IMG/VR virus record: IMGVR_UViG_3300025086_000247
Coordinates: 1-23,576 of that record
DNA: 23,576 nt
Strand: one strand, 5' to 3'
Source: a virus
Position 1 is the stretch's first letter. Every line of letters begins with the position of its first letter. This document shows, piece by piece, positions 5,050 through 15,094 of this stretch. Made by a program: the position numbers and the translations under genes. The notes beneath the pieces are model-generated. The model was given only the letters and a program-made list of their open reading frames with translations. It did not search any database and was not told the origin of the DNA.

Positions 5050-5937
5050 ATGGCGGCGATTAACGGCTGGGCCAGAGGCGGCTGGGGCGAAGGCGCGTGG
5101 GGAACACCCCTGCCCGTCGAAGTCACAGGTGTGTCTGCTACAGGCGCAGTAACTGCCGCCACCACTGTTTCAAACAACACCCTAGCTGTAACGGGTGTCG
5201 AGGGGACAGCATCTGTAGGTTCTGTCTTTGTTGCGTTAGGAGCAACCGTCCCTGTCACGGGAGTATCAGCCACTGGGTCTCCCGGCTCTGTATCTACAAT
5301 ATCGAACAATACCCTCCCCGTTACAGGTGTTGAGGGTACAGGGCAGATAGGGACGCCCTCTTTCTCTTTGAGCATCGTTCAAGGGGTTACCGGGGTAGAG
5401 GGCACTGGATCATCAAACACTGGCACCGCAACTGGTGGTGCAACTGGCGCACCTTCAGGTGTTGAGGGTACTGGATCTGTAGGAACAGTATCCACGATAA
5501 GCAACAACACACTGCCGGTTACAGGTGTTGAAGGCACAGCAACGCTAAGTTCGCCTACAATTCTTCTCAGCATCAACGTTGATGTCACAGGTGTTGTGGG
5601 TACAGGTGCCGCTGGAACGGTTGACGCTGATCCAGACGCTGCAATCATAGGGGTTTCTAGCACAGGACAGGTTACCGCCCCATCCGTCGCAGCGGACGCT
5701 ACAGCGCCTGTCACAGGGGTTTCGGCTACAGGAGCGGTTACTACGGTAACTGTTTCTGCCGCTGCGAATGCAGATGTGACTGGAGTTGCAGGCACAAGCG
5801 CAATTGGCAGTGTGACTGTATCGGCAGCCGCAAACCTGTCTTTGACCGGAGTTGGTGCAACTGGGGCTGTGACGGCAATAAACATATGGGGGCTTGTTGA
5901 TACAAGCCAGACAGCAAACTGGACAGAGGTAGCTTAG
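5050..5937 (+). CDS. GVxGTG-repeat virion protein (tail appendage-like)
   Basis: A 295-aa protein. The Trp/Gly-rich N-terminus (WARGGWGEGAWG) is followed by about 12 tandem units, each centred on VTGVxGTGxxGxV, and by a C-terminal cap NIWGLVDTSQTANWTEVA. Val/Thr/Gly/Ala make up most of the repeat and there is almost no charge, as expected for a beta-solenoid or stacked beta sandwich. Related proteins occur in marine phage tail regions. The role is probably structural and possibly in host contact. No convincing Shine-Dalgarno sequence lies before the ATG (upstream is ctagtacttagtac), so translation may depend on re-initiation from the previous gene 10 nt upstream. Confidence 0.65.
   Translation: MAAINGWARGGWGEGAWGTPLPVEVTGVSATGAVTAATTVSNNTLAVTGVEGTASVGSVFVALGATVPVTGVSATGSPGSVSTISNNTLPVTGVEGTGQIGTPSFSLSIVQGVTGVEGTGSSNTGTATGGATGAPSGVEGTGSVGTVSTISNNTLPVTGVEGTATLSSPTILLSINVDVTGVVGTGAAGTVDADPDAAIIGVSSTGQVTAPSVAADATAPVTGVSATGAVTTVTVSAAANADVTGVAGTSAIGSVTVSAAANLSLTGVGATGAVTAINIWGLVDTSQTANWTEVA
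5122..5880 (+). repeat. About 12 tandem VTGVxGTG protein repeats
   Basis: The coding sequence repeats a unit of roughly 20-25 codons with core VTGVEGTG or VTGVSATG. Units 2, 4, 6 and 7 also share a SNNTLxVTGVEGT or similar flank. The DNA copies have diverged at synonymous positions, so the repeat is old and kept at protein level rather than a recent DNA expansion. Confidence 0.8.
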
Positions 5938-6591
5938 ATGGCGACTTACGTTAACGACCTTCGCTTAAAAGAGATTGCCAATGGCGACGAAAGCGGAACA
6001 TGGGGCACAAGTACAAATACCAACCTTGAATTGATAGGTGAAGCCTTAGGTTTCGGCACTGAAGCAATTACAACCAATGCAGACACTCATACGTCTACGG
6101 TAGCTGATGGTTCAACCGATCCTGCTCGTGCAATGTACATCAAGTACACAGGCACCCTAGATTCGGAATGCACTATCACGATTGGGCCGAATACAATGAC
6201 CCGCGTTCACATCATAGAGAATGCAACAAGTGGGTCGCAAAACATCGTCATCAAGCAAGGATCTGGCGCTACAGTAACAATTGGTAACGGTAACGTTAAA
6301 GTTGTTTTTCTAGATGGTGCTGGAAGCGGCGCAGCGGTCACAGATGCTTTCATAGATTTGGAGCTAGCTGATGTTGCAAGTGCTACGATTGCAAGCGCAA
6401 CTCTAACTACCGCAGACATTAATGGCGGTACGCTTGATAATGTTGTCATAGGTGGCAGCACGGCGGCGGCTGGTACGTTTACCGACATAGTCTCTAACGG
6501 AAAGACGGTGGGAACACAGTCAATTGTTAGCTCGAATCCGACATCTGCCTCTGGGTTCCCAGACGGGCATGTGTTTTACGTCATTAGCTAG
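5938..6591 (+). CDS. Tail fibre-like protein
   Basis: A 217-aa protein whose N-terminus (YVNDLRLKEIANGDESGTWG with the following TSTNTNLELIGEAL) is a conserved attachment-type domain of marine phage tail fibres. The middle is beta-rich (CTITIGPNTMTRVHIIENAT). Near residues 155-185 an IxGGTLDNVVIGGSTAAAGTF element appears in the DIDGGTIDG style seen at the start of fibre shafts. It ends soon after that element (FPDGHVFYVIS), so it looks like a short fibre or fibre base. Its ATG follows the previous stop directly (TAGATG). The next gene, a fibre shaft candidate, begins 9 nt later. Confidence 0.65.
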   Translation: MATYVNDLRLKEIANGDESGTWGTSTNTNLELIGEALGFGTEAITTNADTHTSTVADGSTDPARAMYIKYTGTLDSECTITIGPNTMTRVHIIENATSGSQNIVIKQGSGATVTIGNGNVKVVFLDGAGSGAAVTDAFIDLELADVASATIASATLTTADINGGTLDNVVIGGSTAAAGTFTDIVSNGKTVGTQSIVSSNPTSASGFPDGHVFYVIS

Positions 6592-6600
6592 GAACGAATA

Positions 6601-7647
6601 GTGGCTATATTTATTAACGACAATGGTACGCTGAAGGAGCTAGACACAGACTCGCAGATTGCTGTCCGTGCTACAGCCAACACGCTTCATCAGGTGAACT
6701 TTATCGTCGTTAATAACGGCGGTACATTGGCTACGGTCTGGAATGCTATATACAACACGACCAGAGCTACCGCGACAACGCGCTCTACGGCTACGACTCG
6801 TGCAACTGAAACGAGTCAGTCCACCAGTAACTCAACGACTACATCGTTCAATACTACGACTACGTTTGGTACTAGTAAGAGCACTACAACGTCGTTCAAC
6901 ACGGCATTTGCGACGGGTACTAGCAGGAATACCACTACGTCGTTCAATACTACGACTACGTTTGGCACCAGTAAGAACACGACTACATCGTTCAATACGT
7001 CTTTCGCCACAGCTACGAGTAGAGGGACAAGCAGAAATACATCAACCAGCTTCAACACAACGTTTGGAACTAGTAGAAACACATCAAGAAACACTTCAAG
7101 GTCTACGAGTAGAAGCACAAGTTTCTCTACATCGTTTTTTACTACCGTAGGTGGCAAGCCATCGGAGACTAGCCGCAACACAAGTAGAAATACCTCGTTC
7201 AATACGTCGTTCTCTACATCGTTCTCTACTTCGTTTAACACGAGCAGGGGTACAAGCAAGAACACAAGCACGTCGTTTAACACCGCTTTCAATACCACGA
7301 CTTCGAGGGGCACAAGCAAAAGTACAACAACCAGCTTCAACACGACCAGATCGACTGGAACGAGTAAAAGCACCTCGACTGCGTTTAACACCACCACCTC
7401 TAGGGGCACAAGCCAGTCCACGACCACTTCGTTTAACACGACAAGAGCGACAGGCACTAGTCAGTCAACTACAACGACGTTCAACACAGCGTTTAACACT
7501 ACAACGACATTCAATACAACGACGACTTTCAATACCAATACTGTTATATTTGAGCGATTAACTGCTACTGGTAATGACACTGAGGTTACGTCTGGTAGCG
7601 CACATAACGCTAGATATCACGACGGATCGCAATGGACGGAAGACTAG
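6601..7647 (+). CDS. Thr/Ser/Asn-rich fibre with four-residue period
   Basis: A 348-aa protein with GTG start (AGGA 8-9 nt upstream). Residues 1-50 form a non-repetitive head (FINDNGTLKELDTDSQIAVR). Residues 51-314 consist almost only of T, S, N, F, R, K, G and A in tetrads such as TSFN, TSRN, TSKS, TTTF. Residues 315-348 are a non-repetitive tail (YHDGSQWTED). N-T-S/T sequons occur about twenty times. Cys is absent and acidic residues are nearly absent in the repeat. The most likely role is an elongated fibre or spike that contacts the host; the fold is unknown. It is followed by a glycosyltransferase-like gene, and glycosylation of this fibre is a hypothesis. It is not a known family to me. 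Confidence 0.6.
   Translation: MAIFINDNGTLKELDTDSQIAVRATANTLHQVNFIVVNNGGTLATVWNAIYNTTRATATTRSTATTRATETSQSTSNSTTTSFNTTTTFGTSKSTTTSFNTAFATGTSRNTTTSFNTTTTFGTSKNTTTSFNTSFATATSRGTSRNTSTSFNTTFGTSRNTSRNTSRSTSRSTSFSTSFFTTVGGKPSETSRNTSRNTSFNTSFSTSFSTSFNTSRGTSKNTSTSFNTAFNTTTSRGTSKSTTTSFNTTRSTGTSKSTSTAFNTTTSRGTSQSTTTSFNTTRATGTSQSTTTTFNTAFNTTTTFNTTTTFNTNTVIFERLTATGNDTEVTSGSAHNARYHDGSQWTED
6751..7542 (+). repeat. Low-complexity tetrapeptide repeat region
   Basis: A long stretch of codons for TSxx tetrads. Larger 16-residue units are also seen near the start (TTTSFNTTTTFGTSKS, TTTSFNTAFATGTSRN, TTTSFNTTTTFGTSKN), including a 26-nt perfect direct repeat at 6844-6869 and 6940-6965, 96 nt apart. Synonymous codons vary between units, so expansion was followed by divergence. 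Repeats of this kind can expand, contract or be misassembled. Confidence 0.85.
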
Positions 7648-7796
7648 AGGACGAGTTAAAGGCTATAAACAAGCGCATAGAAACAATGCTCGACATAGTC
7701 CTTGAGCATTTCGGTGACTCAGAAGATCGTTTCGATGAGTTAGAAAAGATGATATCTGACCTCAAGGATGGTGCAGGGGCTAAAGATGCCGATTGA
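7632..7796 (+). CDS. 54-aa coiled-coil micro-protein
   Basis: A short frame whose ATG overlaps the fibre gene by 16 nt; its stop overlaps the start of the next gene. The product (MDGRLEDELKAINKRIETML, then DIVLEHFGDSEDRFDELEKM and a short acidic tail) is one charged amphipathic helix with hydrophobic heptad spacing, a typical small coiled coil. No Shine-Dalgarno sequence is obvious, so it may be translated by coupling to the fibre gene. It could be a fibre chaperone or oligomerisation partner; that is a guess from position. It exactly bridges two secure genes, which supports it as a real gene. Confidence 0.55.
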   Translation: MDGRLEDELKAINKRIETMLDIVLEHFGDSEDRFDELEKMISDLKDGAGAKDAD

Positions 7797-8661
7797 CCAG
7801 TTAGCTATTGATGATCGCCTTGGCAATGCTGGGGCGCACTTCTTCAAGAGCGGCAACATTCTTAGAAACCCTAAGTGCAATTCCTTAAATCTAGCTAGTT
7901 TGCTGCCCAAGCGCGGCCTGTATAACACCAACCTTGAGTACGATCTTTGGTATTCAATGGGGGGTAACAAAGAAATACACGGCTACGTTTACACCGATGC
8001 GCTTGAAGACTACTTGTACATAAAGCCAGCCAATCAGCATTTCGCTGAAATGGCTATGTATGCAAGTGTAAAGCTTGACCCAACCGGATATGGCGAAAAG
8101 CTAGTTGATCAGATGGGCAAGGGTATTGCGGACAAGTACAGGCTCAGACGCTCAAGCGTAAAGCACAAGTTCGTCATATTCCTGCCCGGAACTAACTGCA
8201 TAAAGAAAGTCTTTGATTGGGATAAAGCAAAAGCCGCCGTTGATCAAGGCGCTGTTATAAAGCCTCACCCTATTTCCAGCGTATCTTTGGTGGTTCATCT
8301 AAAAAACCTCTATGGCGAAGACAACGTCTTAGAGAAGAAAGAGTCTGGTCATGAGCTTATGCAGGCCGCAGACATTGTGGGCTGTTGTTGGAATAGCGAA
8401 ATGGGCATAGCGGCAATAGCCGCAGGCAAGGGCTTTCATCTATTTACAGACCTCAAATGTAAAAGTCATGGCACATACGATCCCATATACAAGGCGATAC
8501 TAAGCGGTGGCAACTACAGAGATAACCTAATACGGGTATTTGACAGTCCTTTTAGCGGTATAATTTACGGCAAAAGCGATGATGCGCTAGATCGCATAGC
8601 GTCTTTCTTCAACCAGTTTTCGGAGGTTCCTCACATTGAACCCAAAAATACTAGTCCGTGA
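7786..8661 (+). CDS. GT-B-like glycosyltransferase candidate (capsule-synthesis type)
   Basis: A 291-aa protein. The ATG at 7786 is preferred over 7768 because AGGGG lies 6-7 nt upstream of it. Residues 127-135 form a beta strand (HKFVIFLPG). A KPHP motif is at 159-162. After a further Rossmann-like stretch (ELMQAADIVGCCWNSEMGIA, 190-209) comes a small-residue loop before AAGKGFHLF. KPHP followed by a Ser-Glu/Gly loop is the arrangement of GT-B enzymes such as capsule-synthesis (KpsC/KpsS-like) and CDP-glycerol transferases. Donor and acceptor are unknown; the upstream Thr/Ser/Asn fibre or a host surface glycan are both possible. Length is short for a full GT-B, so the N-terminal domain may be reduced. 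Confidence 0.5.
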   Translation: MPIDQLAIDDRLGNAGAHFFKSGNILRNPKCNSLNLASLLPKRGLYNTNLEYDLWYSMGGNKEIHGYVYTDALEDYLYIKPANQHFAEMAMYASVKLDPTGYGEKLVDQMGKGIADKYRLRRSSVKHKFVIFLPGTNCIKKVFDWDKAKAAVDQGAVIKPHPISSVSLVVHLKNLYGEDNVLEKKESGHELMQAADIVGCCWNSEMGIAAIAAGKGFHLFTDLKCKSHGTYDPIYKAILSGGNYRDNLIRVFDSPFSGIIYGKSDDALDRIASFFNQFSEVPHIEPKNTSP

Positions 8662-9334
8662 GAACGCTTGGAGCGCAATCACAGTAGACTCAATCAAGGC
8701 GAACATGCCTGATTGGGAGCCTGTCCTAATCAAGAAGGGGGCTTCTGGTGTTATTGCTGCGGCACTTGATAATGCAGACGGCATCACTATGTGCGTCCGA
8801 GGCGGTGTCGTTCTTGATATAAAGCTAGAAGACTTGCCACCAGATGAAAAGCTTTCTGCATTCCACATATCTCTATCTAAGCGCGGGGTTTATGTCGATA
8901 ACCCAAATCACGACCAGATATACAACTTAGCCGGTGCGAACATCACTCACGGGACATGGGACTTAGATGTAATCATAGTCAATCCTGACATGTGGGACGC
9001 CGCTCCTGAACAGGATGCGGGTGCCTTGCGCGATAAAAAAATCCTGAAGATGCCGCGCTACATGAACCATAGAGTGGATCGTGTTGCAGAAAGGGTATTA
9101 CCTGCCGCAGAACTCGCTAGATACGGCGTTCTTGGGCATCAAGCAAGTGTGTTGAACTATGTCGGCGTATTGACCCACGGCCTCTATGGTGCCGCTAGAT
9201 ACGCATACGCATTAGATCGTGTTACGCCGTTTGTGGGCAATCTCAACGCAGAGAAGAAGGCTCAAGCTGAAGCGTATATAGGTCGATGCAAGAGCCAATC
9301 AAAATTTATCAAAGCTTTAGCGGAGAGTAACTAA
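8636..9334 (+). CDS. Unrecognised protein, GT neighbour
   Basis: A 232-aa soluble protein starting with TTG, chosen because GGAGG at 8622-8626 lies 9 nt upstream; it overlaps the preceding gene by 26 nt. It starts with a strand-helix pattern (PKILVRENAWSAITVDSIKA) and a second strand around ADGITMCVRGGVVLDIK, then a hydrophilic middle (ISLSKRGVYVDNPNHDQIYN) and a helical C-terminus with LPAAELARYGVLGHQASVLN. I see no catalytic motif I can name. Overlap with the GT-like gene suggests a linked role, for instance glycan or fibre modification. A degenerate GT-A domain is one alternative, with low confidence. Confidence 0.5.
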   Translation: MNPKILVRENAWSAITVDSIKANMPDWEPVLIKKGASGVIAAALDNADGITMCVRGGVVLDIKLEDLPPDEKLSAFHISLSKRGVYVDNPNHDQIYNLAGANITHGTWDLDVIIVNPDMWDAAPEQDAGALRDKKILKMPRYMNHRVDRVAERVLPAAELARYGVLGHQASVLNYVGVLTHGLYGAARYAYALDRVTPFVGNLNAEKKAQAEAYIGRCKSQSKFIKALAESN

Positions 9335-11896: not shown

Positions 11897-12295
11897 ATGT
11901 GGCAGCTAGCTGGAATTCTTGGGGTTGCTCTCGCCCTGACTGGGGGAGCTTTTAAGCTTTACGTTGACAAGGCAGAGGCAGAGAAAGAGTCGCTGTCTGC
12001 CCAGCTTAGAGTAGCGGCAGACAATCAAGTTGCCCTAGAGTCTAGCGTAGAGCAGCTTAACGACCAGATCATTAAGCAAGAAAGCCGCCAGCAAGAGATG
12101 TATGAGCGTGTTTCCCAGTTGCAGATTGACAATGCAGAGTCCCAGCGTGAGGTGGAGTCGATCAGAAAAAAGTTCGCCAAGCACGACATGACTGTACTTT
12201 CCTTACGAAAGCCGGGGTTGATACAGAACATAATCAATCGCGGAACAAAGGAGGTGCTGAGTGATCTGGAAGCTATTACCGATCCTTCTACTTAG
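11897..12295 (+). CDS. i-spanin (Rz-like)
   Basis: A 132-aa protein. The ATG at 11897 is chosen because it gives an N-terminal TM anchor at once (MWQLAGILGVALALTGGAFK) with AGGA upstream; a longer frame to 11810 only overlaps the EF-hand gene. Residues 23-110 are a continuous coiled coil (AEKESLSAQLRVAADNQVAL, EQLNDQIIKQESRQQEMYER, ESIRKKFAKH), ending with the acidic tail SDLEAITDPST. This is the layout of inner-membrane spanins, which connect to an outer-membrane lipoprotein to fuse the membranes in the last step of lysis. The next gene, overlapping by 35 nt, is the expected lipoprotein partner. Confidence 0.8.
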   Translation: MWQLAGILGVALALTGGAFKLYVDKAEAEKESLSAQLRVAADNQVALESSVEQLNDQIIKQESRQQEMYERVSQLQIDNAESQREVESIRKKFAKHDMTVLSLRKPGLIQNIINRGTKEVLSDLEAITDPST

Positions 12296-12650
12296 CGGCT
12301 GCGGCCTCATAGGTCGTGAGCCATACGTCCCTGAGACAAAGAAAGTTGAGGTCGTTACGGTAGTCCAGCCAGCAGCCGTTTATCATCCGCCCTTGCCTAA
12401 CGCCGTTTCAATGTCACCTGTTGAGTGGAAGGTCTTAACGCCAGACACGATGAGTGAATACCTGCAAGATCTGAATGACGGTAACGCCCCAGTGAACGCA
12501 TATTATGGGGTGTCGCCAAAGGGTTATGAGAACCTCTCCTCCAACATGGCGGAACTGAAGAGGTATATACGACAGGTTTTATCTATAATCGAATACTACA
12601 AAGACTTGTCGGAAGATACTGATGGATCTGGAGGGGATACTACAGATTGA
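12261..12650 (+). CDS. o-spanin lipoprotein (Rz1-like)
   Basis: A 129-aa protein with GTG start and a strong AAAGGAGG ribosome site (12247-12254). The N-terminus is a short lipoprotein signal (MIWKLLPILLLSGC) with lipobox L11-S-G-C14. The mature part starts GLIGREPYVPETKK, with a Pro/Val-rich stretch (VVQPAAVYHPPLPNAVSMSP) and a C-terminal helical part (MAELKRYIRQVLSIIEYYKD). It overlaps the i-spanin frame by 35 nt in another frame, the usual spanin architecture. It is longer than lambda Rz1. The last 29 nt overlap the radical SAM gene. Confidence 0.75.
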   Translation: MIWKLLPILLLSGCGLIGREPYVPETKKVEVVTVVQPAAVYHPPLPNAVSMSPVEWKVLTPDTMSEYLQDLNDGNAPVNAYYGVSPKGYENLSSNMAELKRYIRQVLSIIEYYKDLSEDTDGSGGDTTD

Positions 12651-13446
12651 CATAAACATTACGGACTTGTGCAATCGCACCTGTTCGTTCTGTCCACGAT
12701 CTGACGCATCAATATATCCCAACAACAACCAGAACATGAGTCTGGAAATGTTTGATTCGATCATGGATCAGATTGAGGAGTGGCGCTTTGATGGTACTGT
12801 CATGCTGGCAGGCCGAGGGGAAAGCACCAACAATCCAAAGTTCGAGAAGATAATACAGCGTCTTCTCCGTAAGCCTAGAAGATATCGCGCACAGATAACG
12901 ACAAACGGATGGCGGCTTGATCGTTACTGGAAATACTATCGTCAGCTAGACAACCTTGTGCTGAACACCTACACGACGGAAGAAGACTTCAATGCTAGAA
13001 GGGCAAAATACCCTCGCCTAAATAACGGTGAGCGGATTGAGGACTATTGGAAGCCTGACGGCGGGTCAGTTGAAGATGTAAATCGCCTTCCTGATTATGC
13101 TGACCCAAAGGGTAAACCGATTAGATGGAAGCATGCTTTCAATCACAGGGCGGGGTTGATAGCTGGCGGCACTGCTGTGAAGGGGCCGTGCGTTCATCCC
13201 ATGAGGGGCATATTCATTAACTTCGATGGGCAGTTGCAGATGTGTTGCAACGACTGGTCACACCAAATAGGGTTTGGCAACGTCAAAGACGTAAACCTGT
13301 TCAGAGAATGGCGCGACAACCCAAGGCTTGCAGAGATAAGCAGGGAGCTTATAAACGGAAACAGGGATGCTGTTGATCCATGTGCGTCATGTGACGTAAG
13401 TTGTGCCAAACCAGATCTTGTGGAGAGGTACAAACGTTGGCTTTGA
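12622..13446 (+). CDS. Radical SAM / SPASM-type enzyme
   Basis: A 274-aa protein. The ATG at 12622 is supported by GGAAG 6 nt upstream. The radical SAM cluster motif is C17-N-R-T-C21-S-F-C24 after a first beta strand (LQIDINITDL). A GRGES element at 63-67 sits where the GGE SAM-amino contact is expected. The C-terminal part has C189, C207, C208, C253, C256 and C260 (PCVHPMRGIFINFDGQLQMC and CASCDVSC), the Cys pattern of SPASM or twitch auxiliary Fe-S domains. Such enzymes modify peptides, sugars or lipids. The substrate is not visible. It overlaps the o-spanin end by 29 nt and the next gene by 10 nt, so it is in the lysis operon. The same family is common in LPS and surface-glycan clusters. 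Confidence 0.85.
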   Translation: MDLEGILQIDINITDLCNRTCSFCPRSDASIYPNNNQNMSLEMFDSIMDQIEEWRFDGTVMLAGRGESTNNPKFEKIIQRLLRKPRRYRAQITTNGWRLDRYWKYYRQLDNLVLNTYTTEEDFNARRAKYPRLNNGERIEDYWKPDGGSVEDVNRLPDYADPKGKPIRWKHAFNHRAGLIAGGTAVKGPCVHPMRGIFINFDGQLQMCCNDWSHQIGFGNVKDVNLFREWRDNPRLAEISRELINGNRDAVDPCASCDVSCAKPDLVERYKRWL

Positions 13447-14168
13447 GAAAGATGCACACCCGATGGCGTAGAGTGTTTAGCGCCATGCGTAGGCTATACA
13501 AAAATCCCAACGATCTAGAGGCGGCTTTTGTTATTTTTAACTGGCTTTCGTCTGGCTCAGTGCGAAAGCAGTACGAAAGGTTTCGTAATACAGAGTTAGG
13601 CTCAAGAGTCATCATGAACAGTGAGTCGTTGGTTCACGTTCTAGATGACGTTGACAGCTTAAAGGCAATGCCTGTTGGCAGCTTAGGGCGCGAGTACTCT
13701 AAGTTTCTAGTGGAAACAAATCGCTCTACCTCGCAGTTTGCAGGAGACACAAAGGGCCGTGGAGAGAAGCCTTCTGAGTCAGGCTTTAACACATACATCA
13801 AGTGGTACAGAGATCAGCACGATCTTACCCACACGGTTACAGATTACGAGCGCAATCCATTTGGCGAAGTGGTTCTCCTTTGGTTTCTGCACGGCAACTT
13901 TGCAAACTTTGGCATCGTTGCCATGACAATCCCCATGACGATAACGCATGCTAGGAAGAAAGGCTGGGGAGTCTTTGGCGCATCTTTTGAAGCGTATAGA
14001 CATGGGCGGAAAGCTAAGTGGCTTGCAGGTGCGGACTGGCCTGCATTGCTATCAATGCCTTTAGAAGACGTTAAGGCGTTAATAAAAATACAAGATCCTG
14101 TTAAATATCAAGACCTTATGTGCAGGTTGAGAGAATCTAAGGACGTTGCCAGTGAAGGTGCTAGATAA
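13437..14168 (+). CDS. Coq4-like protein (ubiquinone biosynthesis family)
   Basis: A 243-aa protein; the TTG at 13437 is chosen because GAGAGG lies 8 nt upstream, with ATG 13452 as alternative. The diagnostic Coq4 metal-binding motif HDxxHx11E is intact: H128-D129-L-T-H132, then 11 residues, then E144 (HDLTHTVTDYERNPFGE). Upstream is GSLGREYSKFLVETNRS, as in the LGxxYxxF element of Coq4. Downstream is YRHGRKAKWLAGADWPALLS with PLEDVKALIKI, like the Coq4 C-terminus. Length equals the family norm. In eukaryotes Coq4 takes part in ring modification and assembly of coenzyme Q synthesis. In the phage it may support respiration or be reused. It overlaps both neighbours. Confidence 0.85.
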   Translation: MALRKMHTRWRRVFSAMRRLYKNPNDLEAAFVIFNWLSSGSVRKQYERFRNTELGSRVIMNSESLVHVLDDVDSLKAMPVGSLGREYSKFLVETNRSTSQFAGDTKGRGEKPSESGFNTYIKWYRDQHDLTHTVTDYERNPFGEVVLLWFLHGNFANFGIVAMTIPMTITHARKKGWGVFGASFEAYRHGRKAKWLAGADWPALLSMPLEDVKALIKIQDPVKYQDLMCRLRESKDVASEGAR

Positions 14169-14652
14169 CTTTCTTTATAAAGACCTGTATAGCCAGCTAT
14201 TGGGCGAATTGGACGATCTAGATTACAGGCTTATCGATGACCATAAAGGTGCCGATAAGCACGAGGCAAGTCTGGGCGATGACATAAGCCAGCAAATCAA
14301 GTCCTGCTATCAAGAAAAAGTAGGAGAGCCGGTTGGCTTTTTTGACGTAACAGTTGTGAAGTGTTATCCGGGTTACGAGTACAACATTCACGCCGACAAC
14401 CCAAACAAGATTGTCAGCACTGTGGTGTACCTTTATCCAGAGCAGGGAGACGGCACGTCATTTGTTAAAGAAGAAAGTGTTAACAGAATTTCGTTTGACG
14501 AGATTATCTGGAAGCCAAACCGCCTAGTGTCGTGGGTAAACAAGGGCCAGAGGCACATGTACCGCAATACGACTGACGAAATTAGATGTACACTGAATAT
14601 ATATCAAAAGAAACGAAACTCGTTTTTTAAGGTGCAGAGATCTTATGGATAG
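14152..14652 (+). CDS. 2OG-Fe(II) oxygenase
   Basis: A 166-aa protein. The GTG at 14152 is preferred to TTG 14146 because AAGGA lies 8 nt before it. The jelly-roll fold is indicated by the Fe ligands H80-A-D82 (YNIHADNP), and H135 and R145 further on (KGQRHMYRN, DEIRCTLNIY). The spacing HxD...H...R is that of 2-oxoglutarate/Fe(II) dioxygenases. Similar small enzymes are frequent in marine phages. The substrate is unknown; a protein, nucleobase or lipid hydroxylation could be linked to the upstream radical SAM and Coq4-like genes. The start overlaps the previous stop by 17 nt. The endolysin begins before this stop. Confidence 0.8.
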   Translation: MKVLDNFLYKDLYSQLLGELDDLDYRLIDDHKGADKHEASLGDDISQQIKSCYQEKVGEPVGFFDVTVVKCYPGYEYNIHADNPNKIVSTVVYLYPEQGDGTSFVKEESVNRISFDEIIWKPNRLVSWVNKGQRHMYRNTTDEIRCTLNIYQKKRNSFFKVQRSYG

Positions 14653-15094
14653 GAAGACAAGCGCAGAGGGCGTGGCTCTCATAAAAAAGTTTGAGGGATG
14701 CGAACTTGAGGCATATCAATGTTCTGCCAACGTTTGGACGATTGGTTATGGGCACACTCGCGGCGTAGAAGAGGGCGATACCTGCTCTCAAGAAGACGCT
14801 GAGAGCATGCTCGTTGAAGACCTCGAAGAGTTTGAGGGGTACGTTAATGACATCGTGCAGTGTCCTTTAGAGCAGAATCAATTCGACGCTTTAGTAGCAT
14901 GGACATACAACTTAGGGCCAACTAACCTGAGAGAGTCCACCTTGCTGATCAGGCTGAACGAAGAAGACTATAACGATGTTCCAACGCAAATACGTCGATG
15001 GAACAAAGCAGGCGGTAAGGTATTGGACGGTCTAGTAAGGCGCAGAGAGGCAGAGGCTCTCTTGTTCTTAGGGCAAAATTGGGAAGAGGTATAG
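14645..15094 (+). CDS. GH24 endolysin (lysozyme)
   Basis: A 149-aa muramidase of the T4/P22 lysozyme family, which cleaves the glycan strands of peptidoglycan. The catalytic triad pattern E-x8-C-x5-T is visible: E17 (KKFEGCELEAY), C26 and T32 (CSANVWTIGYGHT), where Cys occupies the Asp/Cys position. C-terminal conserved parts include NQFDALVAWTYNLGP and the RRREAEALLFLG end. There is no signal or SAR anchor, so it needs a holin to reach the cell wall. It overlaps the oxygenase gene by 8 nt and follows the AMG cassette, separated from the spanins by three genes. Confidence 0.9.
   Translation: MDRKTSAEGVALIKKFEGCELEAYQCSANVWTIGYGHTRGVEEGDTCSQEDAESMLVEDLEEFEGYVNDIVQCPLEQNQFDALVAWTYNLGPTNLRESTLLIRLNEEDYNDVPTQIRRWNKAGGKVLDGLVRRREAEALLFLGQNWEEV

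Follow-up and report, generated by a model that had tools for sequence, protein, structure and literature searches.

What are three enzyme genes doing among the lysis genes of a phage, and do they belong together? That phages carry auxiliary metabolism is well established for photosynthesis, nucleotides, and sulfur. The stretch of DNA that we analyzed, here referred to as the window, is a virus record from IMG/VR, 23,576 bp long and classed as linear; its capsid and stabilization proteins are similar to those of Pelagibacter phages HTVC023P and HTVC027P, Roseobacter phages CRP-901 and CRP-902, gammaproteobacterium phage DSL-LC04, and some cyanobacterial phages. The phage group concerned is uncultured and aquatic, and usually carries the cassette among its lysis genes. 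A tRNA search for a clue to the host found none. Elsewhere in the window, a fiber-like protein (6601-7647) contains short repeats rich in Thr, Ser, Asn, and Phe; similar fiber repeats co-occur with relatives of the genes at 7768 and 8636 in distant phages (L195-L201 and L258).

A preliminary description had placed a radical-SAM, a Coq4-like, and a 2OG oxygenase gene between the spanin pair and the endolysin, each overlapping its neighbors. The arrangement is real: three overlapping plus-strand genes (12622-14652) lie exactly between the Rz/Rz1 spanins and the lysozyme (Table 1), with overlaps of 29 nt (Rz1/radical-SAM), 10 nt (radical-SAM/Coq4), 17 nt (Coq4/2OG), and 8 nt (2OG/lysozyme). The TTG start of Coq4 (position 13437) and the GTG start of the 2OG gene are backed by homologues. 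From the gene overlaps we infer that the cassette may be coexpressed with the lysis genes; a promoter scan gave chance-level results, and terminator-like sites were slightly more frequent than expected by chance and uninformative. All three cassette genes are under purifying selection, which is weakest for the 2OG gene (median dN/dS across relatives of 0.056 for radical-SAM, 0.097 for Coq4, and 0.183 for 2OG). With structural genes around it, bacterial relatives of Coq4, and dN/dS below 0.2, the locus has the marks of a phage auxiliary metabolic set.

Table 1. Genes of the cassette and its flanks, with positions in the window
Feature	Position	Strand	Evidence	Place
Rz-like inner-membrane spanin	11897..12295	+	phrog_739, E=5.6e-13	Flank, outside cassette
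Rz1-like spanin lipoprotein	12261..12650	+	phrog_812, E=7.4e-13	Flank
Radical-SAM enzyme, BtrN-like, twitch auxiliary-cluster domain, 274 aa	12622..13446	+	PF04055 + PF13186	Cassette core
Coq4-family protein, 243 aa, TTG start	13437..14168	+	PF05019	Cassette core
2OG-Fe(II) oxygenase, prolyl-hydroxylase-like fold, 166 aa, GTG start	14152..14652	+	Residues + AlphaFold2 fold	Optional third member
Phage lysozyme (endolysin)	14645..15094	+	PF00959, E=2.3e-49	Flank

The radical-SAM enzyme matched PF04055 (E=5.5e-12) and PF13186 (E=5.5e-7), each above the Pfam cut-off, and its CxxxCxxC motif is formed by C17, C21, and C24. All of ten diverse phage homologues keep the auxiliary cysteines C190, C208, C254, and C257, and likewise C209, whereas C261 is kept in close relatives only. 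The sole sequence relatives in the PDB are structures of BtrN (4m7s and 4m7t), which align across both domains, including the four auxiliary-cluster cysteines. BtrN, a twitch enzyme whose single auxiliary cluster is bound by four cysteines, catalyzes a two-electron oxidation (PMC9012708). Because the cysteines align with those of this one-cluster enzyme, we assign the C-terminal domain to the twitch type and not, as at first labeled, to SPASM: besides CxxxCxxC, the protein has the four cysteines of a single auxiliary cluster and, though it matches PF13186, lacks the two-cluster SPASM cysteine set. No aminocyclitol genes were found in the window, no relatives of the enzyme on plasmids, and, by pattern scan, no bacterial relative. 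In Campylobacter phage CPt10 (L204, 3219-8774), we observed a row of several radical-SAM genes with a possible glycine amidinotransferase; the row includes a distant BtrN-like relative of the window's enzyme.

The Coq4 protein matched PF05019 (E=1.3e-12; 48.0 bits against a cut-off of 22.9), and its HDxxHx11E metal motif (H128/D129/H132/E144) is invariant across 36 sequences. In vitro, C1 decarboxylation by COQ4 depends on this motif, which forms its Zn site (PMC7615680), and human COQ4 is described in a review as performing a one-step oxidative decarboxylation (PMC11495197). The structure predicted for the phage protein has the all-alpha Coq4 fold and is nearest to Alr8543 (6e12_A; E=2.9e-7, TM 0.69/0.79). 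With about 35% identity to the nearest bacterial Coq4, it sits on a long branch among gammaproteobacterial sequences, with weak support.

For the 2OG oxygenase, the match to PF13640 (E=3e-4; 22.1 bits) falls under the 27-bit cut-off, and the assignment comes from residues and fold. H80xD82...H135...R145 is invariant in nine homologues, and the AlphaFold2 model (pLDDT 90.8) has a predicted double-stranded beta-helix that matches PolD, P4H, and PHD2 at 1e-7 to 1e-8; PolD and P4H/PHD2 lead the 772 PDB chains found at E<=0.001. On its residues and predicted fold, we place the protein in the 2OG superfamily, close to the prolyl hydroxylases and to PolD. It had no match among phage records.

Whether the trio is a conserved set or a random hot spot for auxiliary metabolic genes (AMGs) was put to the refuting check that the preliminary description had proposed, and the set passed it. 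Relatives were sampled independently of the cassette, through gene 8636-9334, at >=87% identity and with a readable lysis locus. The cassette is retained in 11/11 such contigs, nine of which carry it in the lysis locus and two, via overlapping contigs, in the replication arm, and a random AMG hot spot is thereby rejected for the radical-SAM-Coq4 pair. The two exceptions in position (L192 and L193) have lysis loci without the cassette and, over their overlaps, are 99.8% identical to G001 and 100% identical to G003, respectively. In G001 and G003 the cassette lies in the replication arm directly before DNA polymerase A, and their lysis loci lack it; the cassette genes of G004 likewise precede DNA polymerase A in the replication arm. 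The link of the cassette to lysis is positional, and a functional tie to lysis finds no support.

Radical-SAM and Coq4 genes are adjacent in every IMG/VR contig that spans their junction. The 2OG gene follows Coq4 in most contigs and is absent from two lineages (L009-L014/L023 and L016/L017), with no homologue elsewhere in the examined contigs, which are incomplete; related samples gave many nearly identical contigs, which therefore count as lineages and not as independent events. The trio is thus divisible, with radical-SAM and Coq4 as the core and 2OG as an optional member, and Coq4 occurs without radical-SAM in other phages. The radical-SAM enzyme of G001 is more similar to the window's (91%) than is that of G002 (85%), yet it is G002 that has the window's lysis location, which suggests that the cassette has moved between places. 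G001 and G002 (L088-L093) share a structural arm; of G001's replication arm, only the cassette was found in G002.

All three genes also occur in a second phage (fragments L033, L034, and L082), within about 5 kb and in a different order, at 64% identity to the window for radical-SAM, 43% for 2OG (on the opposite strand), and 36% for Coq4. No other window protein was recognized in these fragments. Its Coq4 groups with that of the window at 96/96 in a larger tree, subject to a long-branch warning. Because the cassette is kept in relatives at two places and in an unrelated phage, we conclude that it is a genuine auxiliary metabolic unit of phages, old and mobile, that sits in a lysis operon without being lysis machinery. 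Bacterial origin of the cassette as a whole was rejected: a pattern scan gave no bacterial relative of the radical-SAM enzyme, and the flanks of the best 80 bacterial Coq4 loci, up to 6 kb, hold no radical-SAM or 2OG homologue.

Coq4 has a wider distribution among phages. In a third phage (L208/G022, 46 kb), the order is 3TM holin, lysozyme, Coq4, 2OG oxygenase, and another 2OG-like gene, with no radical-SAM gene; its Coq4 shares 83% identity with a gene of a marine gammaproteobacterium. Judged by eye, G022 also appears to encode a TonB-dependent receptor-like outer-membrane protein (L209, 14091-16361). In a fourth, uncultured group of 40 T4-like contigs (L215, L218-L254, L256, and L257), Coq4 lies between terminase-like and tail-sheath-like genes. 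L219, with Coq4 at 5860-6675, has a DUF6445 gene and a glycosyltransferase-like gene about 3.5 kb upstream, and the DUF6445 gene is found upstream of Coq4 wherever a T4-like contig extends that far. Because the T4-like contigs searched have no radical-SAM gene, this enzyme is not generally required with Coq4, whereas in the window's phage group it always accompanies it. In jumbo-size L213, as in its relatives L216 and L255, Coq4 directly follows a glycosyltransferase-like gene, and L258 has a divergent Coq4 together with fiber-region genes in common with the window. The jumbo-size record G173 (360,683 bp; L213, 402-2000), which has Coq4, gave seven radical-SAM matches, 4/7 above the Pfam cut-off.

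The starred branches of the Coq4 tree require three or more changes of phage label, and four are needed in the best tree; it therefore appears that Coq4 passed from bacteria to phages on no fewer than three occasions. Comparison of the window's and T4-like Coq4 with 50,697 phage records yielded no match, no cultured phage record with Coq4 was found, and we found no paper that joins Coq4 with phage biology or describes the radical-SAM-Coq4-2OG set, in agreement with the earlier statement that no described phage system with this trio was known. Among phage genes, Coq4 has been overlooked despite its repeated capture, and one group has it locked to a BtrN-like radical-SAM enzyme.

Bacterial Coq4 offers some indication of chemistry. 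Among nine genomes with the closest gammaproteobacterial Coq4 loci, UbiH-type hydroxylases are present in 9/9 and UbiD was found in 1/9. When these genomes are pooled with a sample of the gammaproteobacterial class, UbiD occurs in 2/11 genomes with Coq4 versus 86/137 without it (Fisher p=0.0075), a comparison that is small, ignores ancestry, and is exposed to gaps in metagenome-assembled genomes. This weak inverse link is only a hint, one that fits replacement of UbiD by Coq4 in quinone synthesis and a phage copy that boosts or diverts that quinone step. In sphingomonad plasmids L083 and L085, Coq4-family genes lie within acyl-CoA dehydrogenase/P450/acyl-CoA synthetase clusters, which suggests that some bacterial Coq4 proteins have a catabolic role; because of these lipid-catabolism settings, the family is not only for ubiquinone.

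Our preferred, still tentative reading, with a probability of roughly 0.4, is that the cassette acts on a quinone-type ring lipid and that the phage thereby alters the quinone pool and respiration of its host. The chemistry is taken from the Coq4 family and the inverse Coq4-UbiD link in gammaproteobacteria. During infection, Coq4 would perform a metal-dependent, possibly oxidative C1 decarboxylation of a prenylated 4-hydroxybenzoate-type ring, its substrate being a quinone precursor of the host; the radical-SAM enzyme, through a two-electron oxidation like that of BtrN, and the 2OG hydroxylase would take this small molecule or a relative of it as substrate; and in the host, probably a proteobacterium, respiration and the quinone pool would shift. 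Cooperation of the three enzymes on coenzyme Q is plausible. Against a quinone role, no other quinone gene lies beside the phage copies of Coq4, and known ubiquinone synthesis offers no evident step for the radical-SAM and 2OG enzymes. The distance of the window's Coq4 from bacterial ones, in identity and in branch length, also counts against it. The further proposal that radical-SAM oxidase, Coq4 decarboxylase, and 2OG hydroxylase form a new pathway that makes or converts a quinone-type molecule is doubtful; if true, it would amount to a phage takeover of host respiration that arose repeatedly around Coq4.

An unlikely but substantial alternative is that the cassette makes or alters a nonquinone lipid or a sugar, with a product that may remodel a glycan or, in superinfection exclusion, the cell surface. 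Lipid binding is a property of Coq4-fold proteins, Alr8543 having been solved with oleic acid (6e12), and the catabolic clusters of bacterial Coq4 point the same way, as do an aminocyclitol oxidized by BtrN, the nearest solved radical-SAM enzyme, and the hydroxylating 2OG enzyme. A 41% relative of the radical-SAM enzyme (L066) lies in a phage segment with glycosyltransferase-like genes, judged by eye, and Coq4 follows such genes in the jumbo-size phage and its two relatives. However, within its own phage group the cassette has no linked glycosyltransferase or lipid gene, and the Coq4 of the third phage is nearly a host gene, from bacteria mostly without UbiD.

The preliminary description offered, as an alternative, modification of a virion or host peptide by the set. 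We consider it improbable that the radical-SAM and 2OG enzymes modify a peptide or protein, of virion or host, with Coq4 as an accessory. Prolyl hydroxylases, one of them solved with EF-Tu, and PolD are the top PDB folds for the 2OG enzyme, and several peptide-maturase radical-SAM models match weakly; these scores are far under their cut-offs, however, and no peptide role attaches to Coq4. The two positions of the cassette have no conserved small ORF in common, so that RiPP maturation of a local precursor was rejected, though a precursor might lie farther away; the second phage's fragments share no further protein with the window. Modification of the repetitive fiber protein is unlikely because similar repeats and the same two downstream genes occur in contigs, themselves fragments, without detected Coq4.

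That the cassette sets lysis timing, through an effect on quinones or proton motive force that triggers the holin, is very unlikely. Position and overlaps within the window's lysis operon favor it, as does the Coq4 that adjoins holin and endolysin in the unrelated third phage, but the cassette of G001 and G003 has moved to the replication arm and left the lysis locus alone, and for this reason we rate a lysis role low; the T4-like Coq4, between terminase and tail sheath, also speaks against it. A viperin-like or other antiviral nucleotide enzyme directed at rival phages is scarcely credible, since a weak match to PADLOC pVip (E=2.5e-4) stands against 17.2 bits on the NCBIfam viperin equivalog (cut-off 180), the auxiliary-cluster domain, and partners unlike those of the defense sets compared.

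Returning to the quinone reading, since Coq4 appears to have been captured repeatedly, modifying the quinone-like molecules of an infected cell is probably of benefit to phages, and such recurrence suggests that a quinone- or lipid-ring step is under selection while the phage infects. The finding also opens the role of Coq4 in bacteria to testing, in particular in gammaproteobacteria where UbiD was not found.

Each member of the cassette has counterparts in known systems. The 2OG enzyme is distinct from the common cyanophage 2OG genes; it has the predicted fold and HxD...H...R residues of PHD2, Pseudomonas P4H, and PolD but only 15-18% identity to them. BtrN, the radical-SAM dehydrogenase of butirosin synthesis, is the closest solved relative of the phage enzyme but a distant one, and the phage has no butirosin genes. 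The ubiG gene reported in Baltic Sea viruses (PMC9301287) is likewise an aquatic-phage metabolic gene with a possible effect on electron transport; no description of Coq4 among such genes was found. Unlike known COQ4/Coq4 genes, that of the window lies on a phage genome, outside any quinone operon; its product, placed in the family by sequence and model, shares the PF05019 profile match, the HDxxHx11E motif, and the predicted fold of COQ4/Coq4.
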